A stretch of 32,265 nt of DNA from assembly GCA_018671775.1 (NCBI GenBank), contig JABHGY010000036.1, forward strand, positions 1 through 32,265, written 5' to 3'. The notes under the pieces are model-generated. The model worked only from the letters and a program-made list of their open reading frames with translations. It made no database searches and was not told the DNA's origin. The position numbers and the translations under genes are program-made. Of this stretch, positions 30,532 through 32,265 are shown in pieces (position 1 is the first letter of the stretch; each line of letters begins with the position of its first letter). The DNA is from Fidelibacterota bacterium (GTDB lineage Bacteria; Fidelibacterota; Marinisomatia; Marinisomatales; UBA1611).

Positions 30532-31271
30532 ATAAATTTATTTTGACTTTATTCTTTTTCTCAGCACTTTTTGGTGAATCTATTGATGCGATTTATCAAT
30601 CCGCTCACCAATCAATGAATGCAGAGTCCTATCAAGTGGCGGCCAATCAATATGAATCCATTTTGGCGCAAGGATTTGAAAGTGGAGCATTGTATTATAA
30701 TTTAGGAAATGCATATTTTCGCCAACATTTATTTGGTCACGCCATTTGGGCTTATGAAAAATCCTTGCAATTTTCGCCAAGGAATGAGGATGGGAGATAT
30801 AATTTAGATTTAGCCAATGCACGCATTGTTGATAAAATAGATATGCCCGATTCAGGTTTTCTTCTATCTTTTTATCGCACAATAAAATATGCATTCACTT
30901 TAAATGAAATGATATTTATTGCGGGCATATTATTGTGCCTATCTGTATTTGTTTTTGCTTTGAAACGGCTTTTTGGTTTAGGGCTAAATATTATAAAAAA
31001 AATTGCTTACGGTTTAATTTTCTTTTCTCTTGTTTTACATCTGATCACATTCGATCAATATTGGACAAAAATGAATGAATCCCAAGGGATCTTAATTGAT
31101 AATCACGTTAGTGTTTTTTCTGGGCCATTTCAAAAGAATGATGCGATTCTTTTTAGGGTCAACGAGGGAACAAAAGTTGAAATATTGGTTTGGGAAAATC
31201 AATGGGTGGAAATTATTTTAATTGATGGAAAAAAAGGGTGGATTCCCGCCGAAACATTGCGAAAATTATAG
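30528..31271 (+). CDS. batE: BatE-like TPR protein with C-terminal SH3-like domain
   Basis: TPR (GALYYNLGNAYFRQHLFGHAIWAYEKSLQFSPRNEDGRYNLDLA), two TM segments, C-terminal VSVFSGPFQKNDAILFRVNEGTKVEILVWENQWVEIILIDGKKGWIP. Confidence 0.88.
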   Translation: MNKFILTLFFFSALFGESIDAIYQSAHQSMNAESYQVAANQYESILAQGFESGALYYNLGNAYFRQHLFGHAIWAYEKSLQFSPRNEDGRYNLDLANARIVDKIDMPDSGFLLSFYRTIKYAFTLNEMIFIAGILLCLSVFVFALKRLFGLGLNIIKKIAYGLIFFSLVLHLITFDQYWTKMNESQGILIDNHVSVFSGPFQKNDAILFRVNEGTKVEILVWENQWVEIILIDGKKGWIPAETLRKL

Positions 31272-31273
31272 AG

Positions 31274-31699
31274 ATGAAAAAACGCTTTATTTTTTTGATT
31301 ATCACATGTGGAAGTTTATTCGCACAGTCTGCCGATTCTTTATTTTGGTTTCATCCAGACTCGGCAAATGAACCTGCCATGAAATGGCCGATAGTTATTA
31401 ATCAGATATTTTCCCCAGAATATTGGGGTTTTATTGATTCAAACAAAACACAAACAATAGAAAGTAAGGATGGTTTTCGTATCCAAGTGTTTGAGTCAAA
31501 ATCCATTGAAGAAGCTCAAGCTTTTTATCGTAAATCCACCGTTGATTTTAGTGAAGAAGTCTATTTAATATTTGATGCTCCTTTTTATAAAGTTCGTATT
31601 GGAAATTGTGTAAGCAGAAATGAAGCGAACAATCTTCAAAATACATTGAAAGAAATGGGATATAAAACAGCTTGGATCGTTCGATCACGAATTGAATGA
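31274..31699 (+). CDS. Secreted SPOR-domain protein
   Basis: Signal peptide MKKRFIFLIITCGSLFAQ; C-term FRIQVFESKSIEEAQAFYRKS...VYLIFDAPFYKVRIGNCVSRNEANNLQNTLKEMGYKTAWIV matches SPOR. ATG at 31274 follows batE stop. Confidence 0.82.
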   Translation: MKKRFIFLIITCGSLFAQSADSLFWFHPDSANEPAMKWPIVINQIFSPEYWGFIDSNKTQTIESKDGFRIQVFESKSIEEAQAFYRKSTVDFSEEVYLIFDAPFYKVRIGNCVSRNEANNLQNTLKEMGYKTAWIVRSRIE

Positions 31700-31707
31700 A
31701 GAAATAT

Positions 31708-31784
31708 GCGCCCGTAGCTCAGCTGGATAGAGCGTTGGATTCCGGTTCCAGAGGCCACAGGTTCGACTCCTGTCGGGCGTACCA
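31708..31784 (+). tRNA. tRNA-Arg(CCG), CCA encoded
   Basis: Full cloverleaf: acceptor GCGCCCG/CGGGCGT (G-U at first pair), D arm GCTC..GAGC, anticodon loop TTCCGGT (anticodon CCG), T arm ACAGG-TTCGACT-CCTGT, discriminator A, CCA. Confidence 0.95.
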
Positions 31785-31787
31785 CTT

Positions 31788-31818
31788 GTCTTTAAAATCG
31801 AACTTTTCGACTTAAGAC
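31788..31818 (+). repeat. Imperfect hairpin directly after tRNA-Arg
   Basis: GTCTT(t)AA..TCGA-ACTTT-TCGA.TTAAGAC; arms pair with small bulges. Confidence 0.5.
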
Positions 31819-31837
31819 ATTTACTTTATAAAAATGA

Positions 31838-31869
31838 GCTGTATCTTTCGATATTGTGATAGATACAGC
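31838..31869. repeat. 9 bp perfect inverted repeat (hairpin)
   Basis: GCTGTATCT (31838-31846) / AGATACAGC (31861-31869), 14 nt loop. Confidence 0.75.
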
Positions 31870-32005
31870 GACACATCAATACACACATCCTTTTTACATT
31901 TTTTGTTTTTACTGTGTTGTCCGGTCGATTATTACGTTAAATCGAACAAATGTGGGAAAAGTCTCTGATTCTCTCTTTTTTGCAAAATACTCTGGGTTGG
32001 GATTG

Positions 32006-32029
32006 TAAGTCTCACAAATAAGAGACTTA
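32006..32029. repeat. 8 bp perfect hairpin with an upstream competing copy of one arm
   Basis: TAAGTCTC (32006-32013) / GAGACTTA (32022-32029), loop ACAAATAA. AAGTCTCT at 31959-31966 is also perfectly complementary to AGAGACTT (32021-32028). Confidence 0.75.
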
Positions 32030-32265
32030 TAGCGAAAACTCGAAAAATAGACAAATAATAGTTGGCGTTTTCAACGACGCTCAATCCGGCGTTACAGTGC
32101 ATCGAGAAATAGGGACTTTTTGAAATTTGTAATATGGGTTAAAATATCTTGTATCATTAGTAATATGGGCGAATAGGGGATTTTTAAGTTTTATATTATT
32201 TCGAATATTTTGAGGTGCTATAGCGGTTTTTGAATATCGAAATATATATATTAAAAACGACGCCA

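Follow-up and report, generated by a model that had tools for sequence, protein, structure and literature searches.

A conserved noncoding stretch behind tRNA-Arg in Neomarinimicrobiota is probably the left end of a tandemly stacking integrative island

The described systems closest to the locus reported here are islands at genes for tRNA or tmRNA. CIMEs and accreted tRNA islands (ICESt1-related; PMC5704250) lack integration and transfer genes, keep their att ends, accrete in tandem, insert at a targeted gene and hold variable cargo. The ssrA islands of Dehalococcoides (vcr-GI; PMC3146451) have a 20-bp ssrA repeat and insert in the T-loop, and 16 of them carry the CcrB-like serine recombinase DsiB. 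In Pseudomonas, tmRNA-linked defence islands (I55 among them; PMC12595487) insert just behind a structural RNA gene, have direct repeats and phage-defence cargo, and encode their own tyrosine integrase.

The stretch under study, positions 31785–32265, closes a window (the whole stretch of DNA that was analysed, 32,265 bp) that is itself an entire contig, G000:C83, of a 167-contig genome. We conclude that this stretch is very probably the left end (LE) of an integrative island that lies behind a tRNA-Arg gene, directly after the tetranucleotide GTAC, and that belongs to a family stacking in tandem with exchangeable cargo. The islands are like CIMEs and accreted tRNA islands in all of the features listed above; they differ in that GTAC is here the sole exact direct repeat and in their very long, conserved, noncoding and hairpin-bearing left end. 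They share with the Dehalococcoides islands the tandem arrangement at one tRNA-like gene, the absence of an integration module from many members and the adaptive cargo, but serine recombinases are absent from seven of the nine LE carriers found here. With the Pseudomonas islands they have in common the position just behind a structural RNA gene, phage-defence cargo and, as far as the exact repeat of GTAC goes, direct repeats, whereas no tyrosine integrase of their own was found here. The kind of island is therefore already known, while its ends, its 4-bp core and its missing mover are unusual, and it is best filed as an unusual variant of the non-autonomous, accreting tRNA islands (cis-mobilizable type). 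The Neomarinimicrobiota are abundant uncultured marine bacteria, and literature searches found no description of this gene-exchange route in them.

A first-pass annotation, made from the sequence alone, had pointed to a gene-free stretch after the tRNA-Arg with at least four inverted repeats and frequent TCGA tetramers, and held that simple termination could not account for all of the repeats. These observations were borne out. The stretch is noncoding, with open reading frames of at most 60 aa after the tRNA-Arg, and these short frames are not preserved among homologues; because the window ends with its contig, it is the assembly, and not biology, that truncates the apparent loss of coding. 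The four inverted repeats were all located at the places named (Table 1). Short hairpins with 6-nt arms are not unusually many (5 versus 3.2 expected, a number reached by 161 of 1000 shuffles), and the two 8-nt hairpins are mildly unusual (39 of 1000 shuffles), but the folding of the entire stretch is better than that of 100 of 100 shuffles (z = -4.0). TCGA occurs nine times versus 2.95 expected, a count reached by none of 1000 shuffles; the other 480-bp tiles of the window have a mean of 1.5 and a maximum of 4. A search of the stretch for intrinsic terminators or terminator-like sites returned none.

Table 1 Features at the end of the window.
Feature	Position	Strand	Remarks
tRNA-Arg(CCG)	31708..31784	+	attachment site; native part ends with GTAC 31779-31782
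GTAC core	31779..31782	+	recurs at the tRNA 3' end, at right ends and at tandem junctions
left end (LE, subtype 1), conserved noncoding	31783..32245 (right limit approximate)	+	similar to L029, L061, L054, L035, L063 and L051; alignment A1
terminal hairpin 1, GTCTT...AAGAC, inner TCGA/TCGA	31788..31818	+	kept in 8 copies, 0 double changes
terminal hairpin 2, GCTGTATC...GATACAGC	31838..31869	+	98% of cells pair in the 7 copies holding the hairpin
inverted repeat TCGATT/AATCGA	31925..31945	.	kept or nearly so in other LE copies
most conserved core AAATCGAAC...AAAAGTCTCTGATTCTCTC	31939..31973	+	same register in LE1 and LE2
inverted repeat AAGTCTC/GAGACTT	32007..32028	.	kept or nearly so in copies of other genomes
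start of upstream region of predicted WYL-regulator gene (cargo)	32251..32265	+	collinear with L035; TTAAAAACGAC motif; 15 nt, suggestive

Conservation in relatives and extra copies in the same genome had been proposed as checks. The first was found, as the LE of ~480 bp recurs, 77–89% identical, in a small number of genomes from several families of Ca. Neomarinimicrobiota; the second was not, since a search of the window's own genome returned tRNA matches only. Among relatives, LE matches were obtained in G002 (77%), G042 (79%) and G039 (85%, partial), and a wider search added a copy in G159 that is 89% identical to that of G042; these four carriers come from different families. Identity between the copies of G002 and G042, from different families, is 87% and exceeds the 77% between those of G000 and G002, from one genus. 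Most copies stand directly behind a tRNA-Arg gene with anticodon CCG or ACG. A second left-end subtype, LE2, was found in G124, G018, G033, G159, G172 and Scalindua. The first 110 bp of LE2 and of the window's subtype, LE1, differ, but the two share the core at the same offset (~157–206 bp from the element start) and are thus variants of one left end. LE1 or LE2 is present in at least nine of ~245 genomes of the phylum, in several families, the nine carriers being a lower bound because the LE1 scan covered the class (171 genomes). Such a patchy distribution is as would be expected for mobile DNA.

A scan of the collection with one 20-base pattern returned seven contigs, all of Ca. Neomarinimicrobiota or Ca. 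Scalindua rubra BSI-1. Element copies L033, L035 and L057 are on contigs binned as Ca. Scalindua rubra, which is in another phylum; they may be real transfers or mis-binned pieces and, if real, would mean transfer between phyla. An LE2 covariance model added no genomes within the phylum. No match was obtained for LE1 in plasmids and phages, for LE2 in plasmids or for the right end in phages, and viral contigs held neither the hairpin 2 pattern nor that of the LE1 start. Three short-pattern matches in viral contigs (L089, L090, L174) were set aside as chance, being phage DNA with no other element sequence, as was a right-end-like match in a pilus operon (G042:C138), which reads as coding sequence; weak LE matches in G075, G153, G141 and G008 also look like chance.

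The insertion point was defined by comparing occupied and empty sites. In several relatives the SPOR-like gene before the tRNA (window 31238–31699) has yebC/ruvC behind it, but in this genus a local rearrangement has put unrelated genes there; because synteny is broken at this place, the comparison was made at folD–tRNA-Arg instead. Empty folD–tRNA-Arg(CCG) sites in 12 relatives end in ...GGGCGTAC (GCAC in one) followed by unrelated DNA, and none of them encodes CCA. The occupied sites of G039 and G124 read GGGCGTAC|CACTT, and the genes that leuS and folD enclose differ between the two. Thus, insertion is directly behind GTAC, and it is the element that contributes the CA of the encoded CCA. 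Every LE with preceding sequence comes after GTAC, TTAC or GCAC; nine copies lie directly at a tRNA-Arg and the others at a known right end or at another CAGTAC end. One junction, GTAC|ATCAAT in G172, is an exception to the CACTT start. The exact direct repeat is GTAC alone, far shorter than is usual for tRNA islands, and the conserved part of the empty site is the tRNA-Arg side only.

The family is bounded at its other side by a shorter noncoding right end (RE, ~200 bp, versus ~350–480 bp for the LE) that ends in CAGTAC. Five RE ends hold a TCGA 26 nt from the end that resembles a degenerate T-loop (TTCGA), which leads us to infer that this box is a tRNA mimic. In L030/L054, L033 and L061 the LE stands behind non-tRNA sequence ending in CAGTAC or ATTAC, and the sequence before the LE in L030/L054 and L033 is itself a repeat, which occurs in G159, the Scalindua genome, G039 and G042. 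In G039 the RE (C1:180599–180675) lies 20 kb from the LE, and the two bound a 20-kb island (G039:C1 180599–200662) that has leuS and a K+-channel gene beyond its one end and tRNA-Arg and folD beyond the other; in G124 the same flanks frame different genes, beside an LE2. Tandem accretion at a shared att site was seen in L054, L033 (two junctions) and L092, where RE|GTAC|LE junctions have a single GTAC each. In G018:C91, two successive LE2 copies lie 403 bp apart with an RE and no gene between them, forming a gene-free LE–RE unit. Where no RE turned up near a copy, the island may have decayed. The window itself contains the left end only; its right end and cargo were not assembled in this bin. 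Of the earlier suggestions, that of an integrated element with its edge at the tRNA was right, except that this edge is conserved and not decayed; that of a MITE-like element was partly right, as a gene-free unit exists, but most copies bound cargo.

The staphylococcal cassette chromosome, which targets the protein gene rlmH and carries Ccr recombinases, is another system in which cassettes with conserved ends stack at one site and exchange their cargo. Here, too, the cargo is modular and differs from island to island, often comprising anti-phage defence. The genes named here lie behind an LE or ahead of an RE. Both L035 and L054 hold a WYL regulator, a metallo-hydrolase and an IetA-like AAA ATPase, to which L054 adds a RecQ/DpdF-like helicase and a PLD protein; L033 holds DUF6088 with AbiEii (AbiE), L061 a bSEFIR protein, and the 20-kb cargo of G039 an RpiR regulator, a transporter, an FAD oxidoreductase and a PhoD phosphatase. 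The LE and RE sequences provide a search handle for such defence and metabolic cargo in metagenomes.

The likeliest account of how these islands move is that they are of a cis-mobilizable type and would depend on a recombinase acting in trans, in line with descriptions of other tRNA and tmRNA islands (PMC5704250, PMC3146451). A site-specific recombinase supplied in trans would join the GTAC of the tRNA 3' end to the GTAC of a circular form, and the TCGA motifs and inverted repeats of the LE and RE would be candidate binding sites for this recombinase or an accessory protein; TCGA is also present in the tRNA T-loop. No tyrosine or serine recombinase was among the Pfam matches of the cargo in the complete G039 island, nor was a complete one found near any LE or RE examined. 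Mobility is accordingly deduced from comparison and was not seen. As in a CIME, the G039 island has att ends, and scans that took all but a few of its proteins singly showed neither a recombinase nor transfer genes, the latter judged from Pfam names. In this genome PF00589 matches lie on contigs other than that of the island, and PF00239 is absent. Genome-wide, three tyrosine-recombinase matches each were counted in G000, G002, G039 and G124; serine recombinases were rejected as movers given their genome-wide absence from most carriers, and no autonomous relative with an integrase was found. The islands thus pose a puzzle, since they move, or once did, with no recombinase of their own. It is conceivable, though doubtful, that they represent a new type of recombination, in which cassettes with noncoding ends would be moved wholly in trans, with long ends rich in hairpins and TCGA, GTAC as their 4-bp core, an asymmetric target and possibly a folded single strand as the recombining form, by a recombinase of an unrecognised kind or by a repurposed host XerCD or IntI.

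The hairpins of the LE bear on a different explanation, that the stretch is a structured noncoding RNA co-transcribed with or after tRNA-Arg, its hairpins being selected as RNA, which the first-pass annotation had listed among its options. The folding of the whole stretch noted above argues for such an RNA, as do the paired changes in LE2. There, three hairpins occupy the first 110 bp, and the second, ACCCTRCA(G/A)[GNRA-type loop](C/T)TGTGGGGT, shows a loop-closing pair that changes from A-U to G-C in four of nine copies and three double-change pairs overall; its covariation score was reached by 5 of 500 shuffles. However, LE1, the window's own subtype, has two hairpins at similar positions that are kept without double changes, the consistent hairpins are confined to the first 110 bp, and the window and its homologues matched no Rfam family other than tRNA. 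A large RNA fold from the arms 31957–31973/32104–32120 was rejected, as by eye its pairing is not kept in G002. Moreover, every LE found marks the end of an island, and few of the phylum's genomes have one, which is the pattern of mobile DNA and not of a housekeeping RNA. We consider an RNA unlikely as the main reading. For the island end that we favour, the terminal hairpins may protect the tRNA transcript or terminate it, or may be recombinase sites; together with the supplied CA they would preserve an intact tRNA 3' end and isolate the tRNA transcript from the cargo.

Integron gene cassettes also follow one another in tandem, with noncoding, hairpin-bearing recombination sites between them, and so resemble the islands described here. 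The modular cargo with defence genes and an integron integrase encoded in the window's own genome (G000:C156) and in G039, where it is one of the three tyrosine-recombinase matches in each case, would fit an end of an integron cassette array or of a Tn7-like transposon in place of a tRNA-targeted island. Nevertheless, the CAGTAC|CACTT junctions have no attC-type RYYYAAC/GTTRRRY boxes, the cargo reaches 20 kb, the anchor is a tRNA and not attI, and the integrase genes lie on other contigs. Nor is an integron integrase evident as mover in the carriers G002 and G124, whose tyrosine recombinases do not, by size, look like complete integron integrases. Unlike Tn7-like ends (TGT...ACA), the ends here are CACTT... 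and ...CAGTAC, the 5-bp target duplication is absent, and there were no Tns genes among the cargo proteins scanned. Both origins are very improbable. IS200/IS605-type elements fit in their insertion 3' of a tetranucleotide (here GTAC) and their subterminal hairpins, but not in the tRNA specificity and 20-kb cargo.

The integron integrase genes themselves are L099 1–954 (G000:C156) and L100 7915–8868 (G039:C7), both matching TIGR02249 with >430 bits, and an attC-like sequence is visible by eye upstream of the one in G039. At L095 6920–7285 (G159:C73), a contig whose start coincides exactly with LE2 encodes a truncated N-terminal fragment resembling an integron integrase, and behind it lie genes for an HTH protein and a DNA methylase.

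That the stretch is merely a long promoter/operator region of a WYL-type regulator gene starting just beyond the contig is largely refuted and hardly credible, for although the LE runs into the WYL gene in L035 and L054, other LEs precede RpiR, LamG-type, bSEFIR or other genes, and WYL homologues in G059, G035 and G047 have the same short proximal motif, TTAAAAACGAC, with no LE. A WYL gene may nonetheless follow, as the earlier annotation had allowed for an ordinary gene beyond the window: collinearity with L035 (LE, then WYL-regulator gene) extends to 32261, and the last 15 bases, the beginning of that motif, are suggestive of a start codon near 32300, ~35 bp past the contig end.

Further observations concern tRNA genes. 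The contig end L132 (G128:C107) falls exactly at GGGCGTAC of a tRNA-Arg, which is what an assembly break caused by a variable insertion point would produce; islands of this family may explain assembly breaks behind tRNA-Arg in several genomes. Upstream of tRNA-Arg, the 5' part of the tRNA recurs in partial copies that contain an inserted hairpin, GCGCCCGTAGCTTCCCGATAAATCGGGACAGGCAGCTTCGCTACGGAC, at L013 ~1798–2085 (G124:C1), where they form a tandem row, and at L008 ~186–260 (G002:C16); these copies may be left over from repeated insertion at the 5' side. At L016 ~1275–1760 (G042:C133), a tRNA 3' part (Met-like, CAT anticodon region) is followed by strongly diverged LE/RE-like sequence, which suggests a related element with another tRNA target.
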